Of a stretch of DNA of 8,451 nt, positions 1,311-8,451 are shown in pieces (within the stretch, counting starts at the first letter, position 1; each line of letters starts with the position of its first letter). Source of the stretch: an uncultured Erysipelotrichaceae bacterium. Its GTDB lineage: Bacteria; Bacillota_I; Bacilli_A; Acholeplasmatales; Anaeroplasmataceae. A program made the position numbers and the translations under genes. The stretch spans positions 1 to 8,451 of the forward strand of contig CADBQV010000026.1 in assembly GCA_902796895.1 (NCBI GenBank). The letters run 5' to 3'. Below the pieces are notes generated by a model. It saw only the letters and a list, made by a program, of their open reading frames with translations. It was not told the origin of the DNA and did not search any database.

Positions 1311-2600
1311 ATGAAAAGAAATTTGATATTAAATTCAATAGTCTTATTCGTCACATCTTTCCTTTTAGTACTTGTTGTGCTTGCATGGTATGTATCTAAT
1401 TCAACTGTTAGAGCAACAGGAATTATAGTTAAGACATCTGGTGATGATTACACACTTAAGCTTCAACGTGGTACATACACTTATGATTTAGATAATGATA
1501 GAAGCTCATATAATTCAGGTTGGTATTGGGAATGGGAAGATACAGATGCAATGACTTTTTCAGACATTCAACCTGGCGACGCATTCTATTTTAGAATTGT
1601 TATGGAATCAACTGCAAGCCATGAGTTCTCAGTTGATTTTGGAGCTATCGTATCATCATTAATTGAAGATACACTTTATGGGTATAATTCAAGCTTACTT
1701 GTTGAATATACAAAAAGTAGTGATACAAAAAAACAAGAAGGCAAAGAATATTATTTCCCTACATTTACATTAGATAGTGTAATTCAAGGATATCCTGTAA
1801 AGCCATTTACTTATTATGAGAAAAAATTAGATGACAATGATAAAGAATATTATGAATTAACAGAAGATGAAACATTTGCTACTGGTAAAAGCTATTATAA
1901 AGCAAGATTTACATTAGAAGAATTCCCTGATTTTAAAAAGAATGCTTACTATGAAAAAGGTGAAGCATCAACTGATGTAAACGCAATTGGTTATAAAATA
2001 GTAGGAACTCAATATAGCTTCTTATATCCATTATTTAGTGATAATACAGTAAAAATAACAGATGATAAAACTTTATATTCATATGATAGTGAAGCAAAAA
2101 CTGTATCACTTGTTGATTACAAAATAGAAGATGTATTCAAGGTATACGATATAGGAATTAAAGAAGTAGGTAAGAGTGATTTATATCATGATAATTTTTA
2201 TAAGAATGACCTATTATATGAATACAATTATACAAAATTAACAAATGAATCAACATTAAGCAATGATAAAATTTATTATGTTAAAAATTTAGATAGCGAA
2301 TATGTTAAAGTAGTTAACCCAGTTGAAGCTAATAAATTAACATATTATGAGCGTGGATCAAAAATATTAGATTCTCATAATGAGCCAATTACAAGATATA
2401 ACAATGATTTCTTAAAAGAAGCTTCATATACATTTGATACAGAAAACAATGTAGAAGGAATAACTTATTATTATTTCGCATTAGAATTTAATGATGAAGC
2501 ATCAATAGAAAATATTTATGGTACATTATCAAGTAACTGTTATTTATATCAAAAATTAAGAATTGGTGAATTAAAGGTTAACAAAATAGGCGAAGAATAA
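1311..2600 (+). CDS. Exported TasA/camelysin-like surface protein with Tyr-Tyr modules (first of three)
   Basis: This 429-aa protein starts with a Lys/Arg-led hydrophobic segment (about residues 5-24) ending in LAWYVSN. It continues with ATGIIVKTSG, a layout like the TasA/camelysin group and other single-signal AWF/AYF surface proteins. Residues 84-105 (SDIQPGDAFYFRIV...) carry a PGD turn at 88-90, followed by alternating beta-strand sequence, as in that fold. The middle is occupied by repeated units with Tyr pairs at 147, 168, 180, 195, 213, 322 and 345, and a triple Tyr at 386-388; several read YYEKG or YYERG. There is one Cys and no LPxTG, so the N-terminal segment is either a cleaved signal or the only anchor. 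The protein is rich in Tyr and acidic residues. AAAGGAGG (1296-1303) supports the start. It is probably a structural matrix or fibre subunit; the family link is by pattern only and not proven. Confidence 0.6.
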   Translation: MKRNLILNSIVLFVTSFLLVLVVLAWYVSNSTVRATGIIVKTSGDDYTLKLQRGTYTYDLDNDRSSYNSGWYWEWEDTDAMTFSDIQPGDAFYFRIVMESTASHEFSVDFGAIVSSLIEDTLYGYNSSLLVEYTKSSDTKKQEGKEYYFPTFTLDSVIQGYPVKPFTYYEKKLDDNDKEYYELTEDETFATGKSYYKARFTLEEFPDFKKNAYYEKGEASTDVNAIGYKIVGTQYSFLYPLFSDNTVKITDDKTLYSYDSEAKTVSLVDYKIEDVFKVYDIGIKEVGKSDLYHDNFYKNDLLYEYNYTKLTNESTLSNDKIYYVKNLDSEYVKVVNPVEANKLTYYERGSKILDSHNEPITRYNNDFLKEASYTFDTENNVEGITYYYFALEFNDEASIENIYGTLSSNCYLYQKLRIGELKVNKIGEE

Positions 2601-2616
2601 AAGGAGGTGTACAAGC

Positions 2617-3966
2617 ATGAATAATAGATTAAAAAAATTATTATATATTATATTACCATCTATGGCGTTAGTTGCCACAGTTTTAATAACTATAGCTATT
2701 ACTCATGGTTGGTACACTAATATGAATAAGATGGCTGAAATTGATGCGAACACCAAAAATTCAGGTTTTAAATATGAAATAAATGGTGAAACATTAGAAA
2801 AAGATGAATATTCAATTTCAAATTTAGTATTCTTTGATATTAATTCTATTTATGAAGGAAAATATTTCAATAAGATGGTATATGAAATAGAATTAGATAT
2901 TGAAAATATTACAGATGATGATCTAACTTATTCAGTTACATTTGAAGGTTTTAGACAATCATATAATGATGGTTCAAGTGTTAAATCAATTTCATATGTA
3001 GGTTGTATTATGTCACCATATAAGCTTGGATATGAATACCAAGAAAAAGGAAAGCAAGGAACGACATATTATACATACAATGATGATACACATGAATACA
3101 CAGAATATGCTAATTCAAATACAATTGCAGATGAAGTAGACATATCAGGATTAGATTTATATTCATACAATGAAGATTATATTGATGATATATATGTTAT
3201 AACTTCAGATAAGACAGTTATGGCTAATAAAAAATATTATCAAAAAATATCAAATGATTATCGTGAATATATAACTGCAGGAAATAAAATATTAGATGAA
3301 AATAAATATTATGAATTTGTATACGAAATAGCTAATGAGTATGATCCATCAGGAGAATATTATGAAATTCATTCATCTTCTAATGGATCTGCCTTCTATA
3401 CACTTATTAATAATGAATATGTTACAAGTTCAAATTATAGAAATTATTATTTTAAAACAAATAATTGTCAAAAAACTACTGATAAATATTTCCAAAATGA
3501 AACATATTTTTTAAAGAATAATGATACAAATAATAATGAAACATATATTGAACTTACAACATTAACACCTGGTGATTCAACAGAAAATAAGAATTATTAT
3601 GAATGTGGTAAGAAGATTAATTCATTAATTGAAAATGATAATTCACTTGGTATTACATATACTCCATCATATTCAACAATTACAAATGGTGATGTTACAA
3701 ATGAATCAACTTTACCATTTAAAGTAGAATATACAAAAGGTAAACTTGGTCCTAAATCTGGAGTAAAGAAAAATCAAAAATTATATTTATATGTATTTGG
3801 AGTACAAGAAGTAAATCAAGCATTAAATCCAGAATTTATTGAATTTGTTCATGATTTTAGAATTACGATAAGCGCAACAACAGAATCATCTTGGACTGTA
3901 GTTGATGAAATTGAAGATAACAACGACAATAATAATGGACAAAATAATGGTGATAACAATGGTTAA
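2617..3966 (+). CDS. Exported TasA-like surface protein with Tyr-Tyr modules and Asn-rich tail (second)
   Basis: This 449-aa protein has a basic N-terminus and one hydrophobic segment (about residues 8-29) ending in THGWYTN, parallel to the LAWYVSN of the preceding protein. Residues 89-108 (YEIELDIENITDDDLTYSV) look like the beta-strand, Asn turn, strand pattern of TasA-like sandwiches. The central region carries Tyr-Tyr modules at residues 151, 207, 231, 248, 277 and 327. The last, YYECGKKI, aligns with YYERGSKI in the first protein, so the two share ancestry. The C-terminus (about 431-449) is a short tail of Asn, Asp and Gly, probably flexible. No cell-wall anchor is visible. AAGGAGGT at 2601-2608, 8 nt from the ATG, fixes the start. 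The gap from the previous gene is 16 nt, so the two are co-transcribed. It is likely a second structural subunit; function is inferred. Confidence 0.55.
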   Translation: MNNRLKKLLYIILPSMALVATVLITIAITHGWYTNMNKMAEIDANTKNSGFKYEINGETLEKDEYSISNLVFFDINSIYEGKYFNKMVYEIELDIENITDDDLTYSVTFEGFRQSYNDGSSVKSISYVGCIMSPYKLGYEYQEKGKQGTTYYTYNDDTHEYTEYANSNTIADEVDISGLDLYSYNEDYIDDIYVITSDKTVMANKKYYQKISNDYREYITAGNKILDENKYYEFVYEIANEYDPSGEYYEIHSSSNGSAFYTLINNEYVTSSNYRNYYFKTNNCQKTTDKYFQNETYFLKNNDTNNNETYIELTTLTPGDSTENKNYYECGKKINSLIENDNSLGITYTPSYSTITNGDVTNESTLPFKVEYTKGKLGPKSGVKKNQKLYLYVFGVQEVNQALNPEFIEFVHDFRITISATTESSWTVVDEIEDNNDNNNGQNNGDNNG

Positions 3967-4003
3967 TTAAATCATCTGCTATCTGACTATAGGAGGTCTT
4001 AAT

Positions 4004-5062
4004 ATGGTAAAGACAAAAAGAAAGTTAATAATAATTATTGCATCAATTTCTTTTGTATTAACTATTGGTGTAGTATTTGCAGCCTTCCTATTTTCTAGAA
4101 TGGTTGATGGTGATGCAAGAACTGGTAATATTTATGAAATTAATAAAGAAATAAGAAGTTATTCAAAATATACTTCAGTTGAAGCAGCAAAGGCTGCAAT
4201 AGGTAATCCTATTAATTTTGATGTATTATCAGAAAGAAAGAGTGAAGCAACAGTAGTAACTAATAAAATAAATAATGAAGATATTAATGCTGAAACTATT
4301 ACATGCCTTGCATCAAAAAGAACAACAAACTTCTATGATGAGGCAGATTTAGCACTACCTTATCTAAATCAAATTGGCTTATATGTAAGCTTTACAACAA
4401 CAATTGATTCATACGCTAGAATTAGCTTTGAGGATGTATGGATTTCTAAAAAGAGATATCAAGGTTCTGATCCTAAAGAAACAATAATTGTTAAAGACCA
4501 ATTAAATGGTGTATACGAGCAAGTAGACAATTCTAAGATTACACCAAATAATGTTGGTGCTTATTTCTTACTTACTGAATCAGAAGCTCAAACTTATAAT
4601 GAAAATACTTATTATTACACAAAAGAAATAATAAATGAAAAATGGTATTACAGATATGCCATGATAAATAATCAAACTGAATTATCAGGTGACACCACAT
4701 ATTATACTTTAACAGAAACAAAACAAAATAAATATGATTCAGTTGCTGATGCAGATAAGAGATTTTATAAATTCAGTGCTGAATCACCATTTGAAAAAAT
4801 AAATCAAGATGAAAATTCAAAATGGTATTATGATGCAAGAACAAATGTTGCATATTATAAAGAAATGATTGATATTGATGAAAGTCAAAAGGGTAAGAAA
4901 ACAATCAATTTCGGTATAGATATTGCAAATGATTATTTCTATCAAACAAAAGAAGCATCATATGATGAAATCGTAAAGGTTCAATTATCATATCATGTAG
5001 AGGTTGTACAAGCAAATAGATGTATGGCTATATGGCATATACAACCTGAAGAATTATTCTAG
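4004..5062 (+). CDS. Exported TasA-like surface protein with Tyr-Tyr modules (third)
   Basis: This 352-aa protein begins MVKTKRK, then a hydrophobic segment (about 8-29) ending FAAFLFS, followed by ARTGNIYEI. The order A-F, about ten residues, A-x-x-G-x-hydrophobic recalls the mature N-terminus of TasA. Residues 124-145 (IGLYVSFTTTIDSYARISF...) and the last 30 residues are strongly beta-like. Between them lie Tyr-Tyr units at 203-205, 215, 233, 275 and 284; two of these are preceded by Trp (KWYY). It is the shortest of the three and has the fewest modules. AGGAGGT at 3991-3997, 6 nt before the ATG, supports the start. The 37-nt gap from the previous gene contains no terminator, so it belongs to the same operon. 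No LPxTG is seen. A structural or matrix role is inferred from the neighbours and the N-terminal pattern. Confidence 0.55.
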   Translation: MVKTKRKLIIIIASISFVLTIGVVFAAFLFSRMVDGDARTGNIYEINKEIRSYSKYTSVEAAKAAIGNPINFDVLSERKSEATVVTNKINNEDINAETITCLASKRTTNFYDEADLALPYLNQIGLYVSFTTTIDSYARISFEDVWISKKRYQGSDPKETIIVKDQLNGVYEQVDNSKITPNNVGAYFLLTESEAQTYNENTYYYTKEIINEKWYYRYAMINNQTELSGDTTYYTLTETKQNKYDSVADADKRFYKFSAESPFEKINQDENSKWYYDARTNVAYYKEMIDIDESQKGKKTINFGIDIANDYFYQTKEASYDEIVKVQLSYHVEVVQANRCMAIWHIQPEELF

Positions 5063-5080
5063 GATAAGGAGGTATAGCAT

Positions 5081-8000
5081 ATGATAAAGAAAATTTTAAA
5101 AACTAAAAAATTTTATATATTCTCAGCTATACTCCTATCTTTGATAGGTCTAGCTGTTTATTTTATTTCTGGAGCTTTAAAGACTACAGATAATTTAAAC
5201 TATAAAGCTTATGTAGGTCATTATGAAACTGATAAGAATCCTATCACATCATTTACATATAAAGAAGCAAAAAAAGATATAGAATTAAACAAATTTTATA
5301 CAGGAAATGTAAATGATAATACATTTACACCTAAAGATCCTACATCTGTAACTGGTGTAAATGGAATTACATTTGATAGTACTAAAAACATCGGTATTTC
5401 TACAATGGCCGAATTAGTAGCATTTTCATATTTATGTAACCCAGATAAAAATCCTACATATTATAAAAGTTATTTAACATATCATTATGTTTTAACTAAT
5501 AATATAAGTAATGATAGTGCAGCGTTGTATTTTATACCTGTTGGTACTGAACAAGGATATCCATTTAGTGGTACATTTAATGGTAATAATTATGATATTA
5601 CTGGTTTATCATTTATTACTATTACAGATATTAATGGTGATACATTTACAACATCATATCCTAAGACAAAAAATGCAATTAACTATTTTGCAATGTTTTC
5701 AAGAAATAGTGGTACAATTGGTAGTTTTGGTTTAATTAATACTAATATTTCATTTAACTACACATCTACAAGCAACAAATTTGATAAGGTTGCGATGCTT
5801 TGTGGTGAAAACACAGGAAGTATATCAAAAGTATACGTTAGAGATTTAAGAAGTGCATCAAGTAATAAATCAGGTATTATGGCATTTGGTGGCTATATTA
5901 TTTCAGGTTTAGTATTTAATAATTCAGGTACTTTAAAAAATTCATATGTTGCATATAATTCAGTTGTTAATGGTGCAGTATTTGATTATCATGATTTTAA
6001 TGAAATATTATATTCAAATACAAGTACTGCTTTAGATAGTGTTAAAAACTTATATGTATATAACCAAAGTGTAAGATCAATTGAAGGTGAAGCAGATAAT
6101 GCAACAGTATATCCAGTTGGTGGTGAAGGAAAACCTCAAATTGGTATCGAAAAGAAAATAACATACACTAATGGTCAAACAAAAAAGAGAAAGCTATATG
6201 CTACATATTGTTATACATATCAAAAGCAATCTCAAGATGAAAAAGAAGTAGAAACTAAATATTTGAATTACTACATGAATTCAAAGGATAATCAAACATG
6301 GTTTACTGCAACTACTGATGATTTTAATACAATAGATGCAGCATATAACATGTCATCATTAATGCCTACACCTATTTTAAGAGGTATTAAATATAATACA
6401 AATGATGAGGCAGATAAATATTTCATTATTGAATCTGAAAGAGATTATGCATTCATGTATGAAATGTTTAATTCATCAAGTTATTTTGCATCAAGTGATT
6501 TTACATATCAAATTGAAGCAAATATTAATTTAAATGAACTATCTCCTATTCGTTATACATATTCAGGTGGTATTGGTGCGACTATTCGTGGTAAGGTAGG
6601 AGAATATTCAGGTGTAAATACTGAAGTAAAAACACTTCCTACAATTTATTGCCCTGAATTTGTTGAAACTTATACAAAAGTAGAAGGATTTAATGCCTTT
6701 GGTTTATTCCCATATGTTAAAAAAGGAACAATTAAAGATTTAAACGTTGTTGCAGTCGCTAGTCAAGATGGAACAAAAGAAATTAGCTTAACAGTTGATA
6801 ATCAAAATGTTGCCGCATTTGGTGTTATTTGTGGTTACTTAGATTCAGGTAAAATTGATAATGTTAATGTTTATGAAAACATTAATTTGAAAGGTAATAC
6901 TAAAGCGTTTATTGGTGGTGCAGTTGGTGTTTTAACTGGTTTAGCTGAAGCATCTAATATTTCTAATAATGGTGAACTTAATGTTAATATAACTGCAGTT
7001 AAAGAAGATCCAATCGATTATATGAAAGGTATATCTGTTGGTGGTGTTGTAGGTTATATCCATAACAGTATGGCAAACATCAATAATTCTTTAAATAACG
7101 CAAAAATTGATGTTAAAGGTATTAGTTCAGTTGATTATACTGTTGGTGGTATTTTAGGTGCAGGTTATACTAATAAGATTGAAAATGTAGAAAATACAGG
7201 TAATATTACATTTGATAATAAATATAAAACATTATATATCGCAGGTGTAATTGGTAGACATTTAGGTATCAATGAACAATCTGATGGCTTAACTAATTAT
7301 GGTAATATTACAATTACAAATAATAGTAATGATACATATGTATGTGGTGTAGTAAATGCAACACCTATTACAGATGGTGCCGATAATTATTTATTATCTA
7401 ATAATTATAAATATAATGGTGAATATTATTATATTGCAACCATGCTTACTAATGGTGCAACTATTACTGTAAACAATAATAATACATATCAAGCAAAGAC
7501 ACATTTAACTGATGTTATAAATGTAAAAACTAGTGAATGTATTACTAAATTATCTTCAGTTCATAATTTATCTTATAAAGAGAATTATAATGGTGAAAAA
7601 ACTAAAATTGCTGACAATACTATAGTTATGAATGCATATCGTAACTACGCACCAGTAATTAATTATGAATATAATAATTCAAAATATGATTACCTAGATT
7701 TATCAACTGCATATAATTTAAAAAATGTAAATTATACAATGTCAGGTGCTATTAATGATTCAAACTTGAATTTAAATTATACAAATGTTGTTAATGGTTC
7801 AAATGTTAATTTAATTAATGTTAGAAACGAAGGTAATATTACATTTACAATTAATAATGCATTTACTGCAAATTTATTTGCATCAGGTATTATTAAATCT
7901 ATATCAGCTAAAAATATAGCTACATCTGTAGTTAATAGTGGTAATATCACATTAAAACATAGCGCTATGATTACAGGTAATATCAATATAGCTGGTATAT

Positions 8001-8451
8001 GTTATGAAAATAAAAATACTTCATTACAATCTAGTATTGATTTATATAACCCTAATAAAGGTTCATTCGATGCGAAAGCAATAGGTGCTTTAAATAATAC
8101 AATTAATGCAGGTAGTATTGAAGTAACAAATGATGCATATGAAACTGATATTAAATATACATATGTCCAAAAGCAATCAAATAATAAACAACAAAATATT
8201 GGTTATTACTATAATCCACAATATTTAGGCGCTTATATTTTGGGAAATATTAATGTGGCTGGTATAACAAATATAAACTATTCTGTAATTACTAATACAT
8301 TCAATATCGGAGATATATTTGCTGCGAATGCATGTAAAACATCAGGTTTTAAAACTAATGTGACAGGTATAGCTGACTTAAATATTGGACAATATGCATA
8401 TATTCTAAATTCTGCAAATAATGGAGATATAAAAGCAATAAATTTAATCAA
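5081..8451 (+). CDS. Giant GLUG-repeat surface protein, 3' end beyond the window
   Basis: The frame is open from ATG 5081 to the window edge, at least 1123 codons without a stop. AAGGAGGT at 5066-5073 is 7 nt from the ATG, and the gap from the third subunit gene is 18 nt. A basic start (MIKKILKTKKF) and one hydrophobic segment (about 12-32) form a signal or anchor. Residues 107-177 follow the plan of GLUG-type adhesins: a MAELVAFSYL helix, a strand, then PFSGTFNGNNYDITGL. GLUG-like turns of the form GG-hydrophobic-hydrophobic-G...G-x-I-x-N follow near 206, 237, 276, 540, 578, 610, 652, 686 and 719. N-x-G-N-I units recur near 916, 952 and 1110. A second helix-strand entry module begins near 448 (FIIESERDYAFMYEMF). 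A beta-helical extracellular adhesin or scaffold is most likely. No catalytic residues are recognised. The C-terminal anchor, if any, lies outside. Confidence 0.7.
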   Translation, partial: MIKKILKTKKFYIFSAILLSLIGLAVYFISGALKTTDNLNYKAYVGHYETDKNPITSFTYKEAKKDIELNKFYTGNVNDNTFTPKDPTSVTGVNGITFDSTKNIGISTMAELVAFSYLCNPDKNPTYYKSYLTYHYVLTNNISNDSAALYFIPVGTEQGYPFSGTFNGNNYDITGLSFITITDINGDTFTTSYPKTKNAINYFAMFSRNSGTIGSFGLINTNISFNYTSTSNKFDKVAMLCGENTGSISKVYVRDLRSASSNKSGIMAFGGYIISGLVFNNSGTLKNSYVAYNSVVNGAVFDYHDFNEILYSNTSTALDSVKNLYVYNQSVRSIEGEADNATVYPVGGEGKPQIGIEKKITYTNGQTKKRKLYATYCYTYQKQSQDEKEVETKYLNYYMNSKDNQTWFTATTDDFNTIDAAYNMSSLMPTPILRGIKYNTNDEADKYFIIESERDYAFMYEMFNSSSYFASSDFTYQIEANINLNELSPIRYTYSGGIGATIRGKVGEYSGVNTEVKTLPTIYCPEFVETYTKVEGFNAFGLFPYVKKGTIKDLNVVAVASQDGTKEISLTVDNQNVAAFGVICGYLDSGKIDNVNVYENINLKGNTKAFIGGAVGVLTGLAEASNISNNGELNVNITAVKEDPIDYMKGISVGGVVGYIHNSMANINNSLNNAKIDVKGISSVDYTVGGILGAGYTNKIENVENTGNITFDNKYKTLYIAGVIGRHLGINEQSDGLTNYGNITITNNSNDTYVCGVVNATPITDGADNYLLSNNYKYNGEYYYIATMLTNGATITVNNNNTYQAKTHLTDVINVKTSECITKLSSVHNLSYKENYNGEKTKIADNTIVMNAYRNYAPVINYEYNNSKYDYLDLSTAYNLKNVNYTMSGAINDSNLNLNYTNVVNGSNVNLINVRNEGNITFTINNAFTANLFASGIIKSISAKNIATSVVNSGNITLKHSAMITGNINIAGICYENKNTSLQSSIDLYNPNKGSFDAKAIGALNNTINAGSIEVTNDAYETDIKYTYVQKQSNNKQQNIGYYYNPQYLGAYILGNINVAGITNINYSVITNTFNIGDIFAANACKTSGFKTNVTGIADLNIGQYAYILNSANNGDIKAINLI
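7199..7951 (+). repeat. Short coding repeats GGTAATATTACA within the giant gene
   Basis: GGTAATATTACA occurs exactly at 7199-7210, 7301-7312 and 7832-7843, and with one change (GGTAATATCACA) at 7940-7951. All four are in the same reading frame and encode G-N-I-T, the turn of the N-x-G-N-I-T beta-helix unit. They mark sequence repeats inside the protein, not a mobile or CRISPR element. Confidence 0.7.

Follow-up and report, generated by a model that had tools for sequence, protein, structure and literature searches.

Closest described systems

In the tapA-sipW-tasA system of Bacillus subtilis, the TasA protein has a beta-sandwich which is completed by the N-terminal strand of the neighbouring subunit, and it forms fibres (PMC9674648), while the TasA/CalY/CapP system of Bacillus cereus relies on several co-operating subunits that form sortase-independent filaments (PMC13082335). 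A third system, CoCoPALM, was named in 2024, when it came out of a census of McrBC, the type IV restriction systems, and its link to pili is only presumed (PMC11090510). The present work deals with a four-gene cassette from an uncultured Erysipelotrichaceae bacterium (assembly GCA_902796895.1, contig CADBQV010000026.1), contained in a window, that is, the whole stretch of DNA analysed, of 8451 bp, which is also the entire contig. Its open reading frames (ORFs), encoding three small proteins and the beginning of a giant one, are the following:

ORF1, 1311..2600, forward strand: 429 amino acids (aa), with a hydrophobic segment at residues 5-23, LAWY and then a predicted beta-rich body.
ORF2, 2617..3966, forward strand: 449 aa, with a hydrophobic segment and HGWY, beta-rich by sequence.
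ORF3, 4004..5062, forward strand: 352 aa, with a hydrophobic segment, FAAF, a beta-rich body and a C-terminal VVQANR...W signature.
ORF4, 5081..8449, forward strand: 1123 aa, the N-terminal part of a giant repeat protein rich in Gly and Asn, with an open 3' end.

On balance, these four genes seem to be the part of a conserved operon for surface proteins which encodes its substrates; the small ones would be cut by a SipW-type peptidase and polymerised into a fibre holding the giant. The evidence lies in the gene order, in the N-terminal module common to the small proteins, in the company of peptidases and of an McrB/DUF2357 pair in other families and in the co-occurrence with McrB within the window's own family.

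The locus resembles tapA-sipW-tasA in the SipW-type peptidases of homologous loci, in the beta-rich small proteins with AxF/AWY-type N-termini and in a free segment behind the likely cut, as far as the accessible part of the source describes that system (PMC9674648). Nevertheless, three families and a giant are involved here, no PF12389 match exists in the window, no match to the TasA fold was seen, and the ATPase pair of the homologous loci goes unmentioned for TasA in the accessible text (PMC9674648). With TasA/CalY/CapP, the common features would be several co-operating subunits and sortase-independent filaments, here known from the genes alone, whereas the portion of that paper available to us does not mention a giant repeat protein and presents CapP as a chaperone-like protein, not an ATPase (PMC13082335). 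As for CoCoPALM, homologous loci from other families encode, as in its description, signal peptidases, a DUF2357 protein and an McrB-like ATPase that has both the NxD motif and a membrane segment, although no secreted substrates are named for it in the accessible part of the report (PMC11090510). A further difference is that the window lacks the core genes and its assembly an McrB homologue, the cassette of the family being mostly located away from the core.

As far as the literature searches reach, SipW-type substrates, CoCoPALM-like cores and repeat giants are known in kind, while no description was found of the cassette, of how it is linked with the core or of how it became detached. Full-text searches on CoCoPALM returned, beyond the naming paper and a preprint, only works unrelated by title, and nothing joining McrB to TasA and a signal peptidase, or SipW/TasA to Acholeplasma, was found in a literature where subscription papers were mostly outside reach; among the papers listed for TasA in Mollicutes, all titles were unrelated except that of a review on the surface proteins of monoderms (PMC5817068).

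Conservation of the four-gene cassette

The four genes are separated by intergenic gaps of 16, 37 and 18 nt, AGGAGG-like ribosome sites precede all four starts, and each product has a single hydrophobic segment, located at the N-terminus. An earlier note, made from the sequence of the window alone, had described such a same-strand arrangement with these gaps and ribosome sites, and its coordinates were all reproduced; the one N-terminal hydrophobic segment it had seen in each small protein was also confirmed, ending in LAWY, HGWY and FAAF. The single promoter it had proposed found no support, since promoter-like sites occur in the window at the level of chance (41 found vs 41.5 expected). The source assembly is composed of 292 contigs and is 79% complete; as the window is a whole contig and the gene runs off its end, the giant ORF4 is incomplete.

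Within the 55 genomes of the window's family, the window included, ORF1-like proteins were present in 20, while the ORF2 and ORF3 families gave strong matches in the same 14, where both genes are adjacent; G008 (E value 4e-6, insert region only) in the ORF3-family search and G010, G019 and G040 (E above 1e-4, N-terminus only) in the ORF2-family search were left out of the cassette count. One and the same order, ORF1-ORF2-ORF3-giant on a single strand, is kept in 13 full loci from 12 relatives of the family, two further loci cut by contig ends (L044 and L085) agree with it, and one genome, G015, holds three copies of the cassette. At the level of the class, 395 genomes were searched with the ORF3 profile, and 26 matched, 21 of which lie outside the genus. 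Seventeen loci were read in 16 of these 21 (G183, G268, G352, G377 and G394, with E values of 1.5e-6 to 8e-4, were left out), and 14 of the loci, from 13 genomes, showed the complete set in this order and on one strand; L110 and L111 consist of ORF3 and giant only, and L112, which has a masked stretch, of ORF1, ORF3 and giant. Beyond the window, full four-gene loci amount to 27 in 25 related genomes, and since the gene order recurs in so many loci it must reflect more than chance. An unconserved neighbourhood was one of the findings that the earlier note had considered fatal to its proposal, and the order turned out to be kept. In a phylum-level search with a wider ORF3 profile, 47 of 392 genomes matched, all of them in the window's class or closer, the number of out-of-class genomes among the misses not being given.

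Other arrangements were also observed. In L046, L050, L051 and L052, from the window's genus, the order appears to be giant, second large protein and small AWY-type proteins, the profiles recognising only an ORF1-like gene (31-39 bits); possibly, this is a sister system with a different gene order. A two-gene form, with an ORF1-like gene and a larger protein (about 580-1915 aa) starting with an AWY/SWF-type segment, was found in L047, L049, L077, L078 and L079. Moreover, L041 (8234-9064) and L045 (9432-10289) encode lipoprotein-like proteins which have the ORF1 body (276 and 203 bits) and no AWY segment, the stretches read containing no cassette.

A common camelysin-type N-terminal module

The N-terminal 50 or so residues of the three small-protein families constitute one common module. 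In fact, when the N-terminal modules of the wider ORF1, ORF2 and ORF3 families were compared in pairs with hhalign, values of 94.8, 96.8 and 96.3% were obtained, while controls consisting of same-operon proteins with hydrophobic starts reached 2.5, 9.6, 14.0, 10.5 and 27.0% against the module. The three wider families also matched a camelysin-type profile (94.0, 95.4 and 94.5%), which was built from five proteins out of 15 matches, as limited by the ORF filter, three of them over the Pfam cut-off and two (L118 and L124) below it. The match of the ORF1 family to this profile takes in the P-G motif. In addition, the wider ORF2 family aligned over 91 columns (96.5%) with L096_07, a protein which exceeds the Pfam camelysin cut-off and is located in a homologous operon of another family. 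Among 52 proteins of the wider families, which do not include L096_07, PF12389 gave two matches at E values up to 1, the best being 0.0051 and below the cut-off, and TIGR04088, the model of the SipW-type signal peptide, gave five, with a best value of 2.6e-4.

The structure models are beta-rich, with predicted local distance difference test (pLDDT) scores of 86.4 for ORF1 and 77.5 for ORF3. In the ORF1 model, the segment behind the hydrophobic stretch (residues 26-39) is left unplaced, and it is the best conserved region of the protein; the corresponding segment of ORF2 is also its best conserved region. A free and conserved segment, as in ORF1, fits what strand donation needs. Direct identification of TasA was tried as well: six small-protein family profiles compared with solved structures gave no TasA, but two camelysin-type proteins from relatives missed TasA too, so that this search is not decisive.

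Peptidases, McrB-like ATPase and DUF2357 protein

In the fullest loci of other families (such as L104, L107, L109, L101 and L100), the operon comprises AWF-type proteins, a SipW-type peptidase, a protein of ~510 aa, another of ~620 aa, the ORF1-like protein, a second peptidase, the ORF2-like and ORF3-like proteins and the giant. The ~510 aa protein is an McrB-like ATPase, with an AAA_5 match just under the cut-off (E 7.6e-4), the sequence GTAN[KR]DD (an NxD motif) in all 21 cases listed and, in all nine examined, a membrane segment located around residues 58-65. The ~620 aa protein contains DUF2357 over the Pfam cut-off (42.5 bits in L104 and 36.7 in its L075 counterpart). Six of the eight peptidases examined exceed the TIGR02228 cut-off, that of L099 remaining below it and the second one of L107 giving no match. 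By profile, the peptidase was found in 13, the McrB-like ATPase in 12 and the DUF2357 protein in 10 of the 17 other-family loci, counts obtained with profiles built partly from those same loci; L108, L110 and L111 are devoid of all three. As far as tested, the other-family loci appear to fit the CoCoPALM description in their ATPase, DUF2357 and peptidase features. The combination, which the earlier note had been unable to name, can in part be named, as a core resembling that of CoCoPALM, invisible from the window, is present in homologous loci. Its suggestion of SipW-type substrates with a giant partner is supported by the conserved unit, by the peptidases of these loci and by the camelysin-type protein in one of them.

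In the window's own family, the machine genes form a locus separate from the cassette, and cassette and machine nevertheless occur together at the level of the genome. An McrB homologue (at least 60% identity) is encoded in 27 of the 55 family genomes, a count that leaves out G016, whose match (78%) covers 32 residues beside the edge of a contig. It was found in all 13 relatives with the cassette vs 14 of 41 genomes without it (Fisher test, 1.8e-5, or 1.3e-4 if the window's genome is counted as a miss) and, within the genus, in 11 of 12 with the cassette vs 6 of 15 without (7.5e-3), tests which ignore descent. SipW-type peptidases over the cut-off were present in 12 of the 13 relatives with the cassette, and the comparison of 12/14 cassette genomes with 21/41 others (Fisher test, 0.022) is weaker than that of the McrB homologue.

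Several family machine loci (L061, L062, L064, L066 and L073-L075) encode, next to the SipW-type peptidases, at least two additional proteins of the AWF type, with about 290-500 aa; the four scanned gave no NCBIfam match.

As for signal peptidases, the window's assembly shows only one of the ordinary type I (L054), besides a small related protein (L053). The latter (8470-8883, G000:C9) is a signal-peptidase-like protein of 137 aa, with 45-46 bits to TIGR02228, and counterparts of 137-150 residues are found in many family genomes. Anchoring by a sortase was rejected, as a sortase was detected in one of the 55 family genomes only, that of a relative without the cassette, and no match was found in the window's genome. 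The search for a SipW-type peptidase or a sortase advised by the earlier note was positive, for the peptidases, in the homologous loci of other families, and negative for both in the window's genome, 79% complete, at the cut-offs applied.

Peptidoglycan genes are reported in 40-60% of Anaeroplasmataceae genomes in the part of the source accessible to us (PMC10868615); this is probably also the family of the window. No penicillin-binding protein (PBP) transpeptidase was found in the window's genome, and of the 14 cassette-bearing genomes of the family, several of which are incomplete, 11 showed none, which raises the question of how these cells make a surface layer and hold it in place. A tie of the cassette to wall loss was considered and discarded, PBP transpeptidases occurring in 3/14 genomes with the cassette vs 18/41 without it (Fisher test, 0.12).

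The giant protein

Complete relatives of the giant measure 2256-4336 residues overall; the five of the window's family that end inside the stretches read measure 3627-4336, and those of the fullest loci in other families about 2300-2500 aa, the one in L101 being split into two frames. In the two complete family giants scanned, the only hydrophobic segment is at the N-terminus. The N-x-G-x-[IVL] pattern, picked after reading the sequence, is found 11 times in ORF4 (mean of 2.48 and maximum of 9 in 2000 shuffles), an excess which supports a repeat protein. The earlier note's description of a GLUG-like beta-helix giant is supported in its repeat nature only: the Gly/Asn repeats of ORF4 resemble those of GLUG-repeat surface proteins, but ORF4 has no Pfam match to GLUG (PF07581) and, of two complete relatives scanned, the L036 giant shows three weak stretches (18.7 bits, under the cut-off of 20.5) and the L035 giant no match. 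When the profile of the giant was compared with solved structures, no structural relative appeared.

Proposed mechanism and alternative explanations

The best reading of these results is that the cassette proteins are substrates of a sortase-free surface-fibre machine, in which the formation of the fibre itself is what we infer. A SipW-type peptidase would cleave near AWY/GWY/AAF, and the freed N-terminal strand would be donated to the following subunit and complete its beta-sandwich, as described for TasA in the accessible part of the source (PMC9674648). The giant would be a displayed, adhesive or spacing element, held either by its own N-terminal segment or by the fibre, while assembly might be driven or gated by the McrB-like/DUF2357 pair; the cassette would be served, in the window's genus, by machine genes of another locus. 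In a bolder version, regarded as less likely than not, this would be a new sortase-free fibre, a strand-donated heteropolymer of three divergent SipW-cut subunits displaying a protein of 2300-4300 residues, with an McrBC-type pair taken from restriction as its membrane-bound assembly motor, and found mostly in genomes without detected penicillin-binding transpeptidases. The cassette would then supply the cargo that CoCoPALM has lacked so far, and would have become, in a single genus, a separate and sometimes multi-copy module.

Several results weigh against the fibre, together with the limits given above for the members of the camelysin-type profile, for the profiles used to label the loci and for the Fisher tests. 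Neither PF12389 nor TIGR04088 matches ORF1-3; the narrow ORF2 family reaches only 58.8% with L096_07 and the wider ORF3 family 21% with the single protein L117 (hhalign). Core and cassette share one stretch only in G001 (L037), one of the 15 cassette loci of the relatives, and the window's genome, at 79% completeness, yielded no SipW-type peptidase over the cut-off (best 46.3 bits vs 51.85) and no match to the McrB homologue. Furthermore, fold searches with the ORF1 and ORF3 models returned weak and mixed beta-sandwich hits with no TasA among those shown, an absence which proves nothing, the segment behind the hydrophobic stretch of ORF3 is not its best conserved one, and the bodies of the three small proteins do not align with each other (the best alignment of the ORF1 and ORF3 families, 94.5%, runs through the repeat insert). 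The earlier claim of three related subunits is consequently restricted to the N-terminal ~50 residues.

The last three results also suit a different explanation, a fixed surface complex without any polymer, in which the small proteins, as single copies, would serve at the membrane to fold the giant adhesin, to anchor it or to present it. The presence of three distinct small proteins per giant, with one gene each and in constant order, is likewise what fixed roles would require. Nevertheless, the N-terminal module is of the camelysin type, the group in which TasA forms fibres (PMC9674648, in its accessible part), and the machine loci hold AWF-type proteins beyond the three, as a heteropolymer would need, so that a fixed complex is regarded as rather unlikely.

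A surface-linked defence or signalling system is considerably less probable. According to this explanation, the McrB-like/DUF2357 pair would keep a restriction-like, phage-sensing role, with the surface proteins as sensors or decoys, which would agree with the type IV restriction nature of McrBC and with the origin of CoCoPALM in the McrBC census, as given in the accessible part of that report (PMC11090510), as well as with the AAA-ATPase or nuclease-like genes seen by eye near L036, L037 and L065. However, in at least 10 of the 17 loci the pair is surrounded by export substrates and signal peptidases, the ATPase has its membrane segment in 9/9 cases, and no nuclease domain was reported in the two DUF2357 proteins scanned. 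Finally, phage-derived or selfish surface genes, a cargo without cell function, are very improbable, since the matches of ORF4 (E 1e-4) and a relative's giant (0.028) to the same PHROG, of unassigned function, and the transposase- or integrase-like genes seen by eye near L037 and L062 are countered by the lack of PHROG matches for ORF1 and ORF3, by an E value of only 0.34 for ORF2 and by the maintenance of the unit across families together with export genes.

With the sortase-free fibre as the preferred explanation, the cassette would offer concrete candidate substrates for CoCoPALM and make a role of McrB-like ATPases outside restriction directly testable. It would also bring Acholeplasma-like bacteria within the range of SipW-type surface assembly without sortase.

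Repeat inserts and neighbouring features

ORF1-ORF4 gave no Pfam or NCBIfam match near the cut-off. The small proteins carry YY-rich repeat inserts, placed differently in each of them:

1671..2060, forward strand: ORF1 residues 121-250, with the YY-rich repeat insert, mostly missing in shorter relatives (mean occupancy 0.48 in the ORF1-family alignment).
2977..3756, forward strand: ORF2 residues 121-380, with the repeat insert, mostly missing in most relatives (mean occupancy 0.41 in the ORF2-family alignment).
4484..4768, forward strand: ORF3 residues 161-255, the repeat insert, missing in most relatives (mean occupancy 0.23 in the ORF3-family alignment).

The count of YY pairs in ORF1-3 is not above the maximum of the shuffles. 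A lipoprotein of the window's genome that looks unrelated (L087, 8179-9879, G000:C113) matches the ORF3 family, over a part of its sequence, at the insert (E 4.5e-6). Possibly, a repeat module has been passed around among the surface proteins.

A scan of the window against Rfam at the gathering thresholds gave no match. On the 5' side of the cassette, the Pfam scan of the window identified the end of a flavodoxin-like gene followed by a glutathione peroxidase gene. At positions 1016-1065, 3' of the latter, an inverted repeat with a T run, not listed by the terminator scan, was seen by eye and is perhaps the terminator of this gene.

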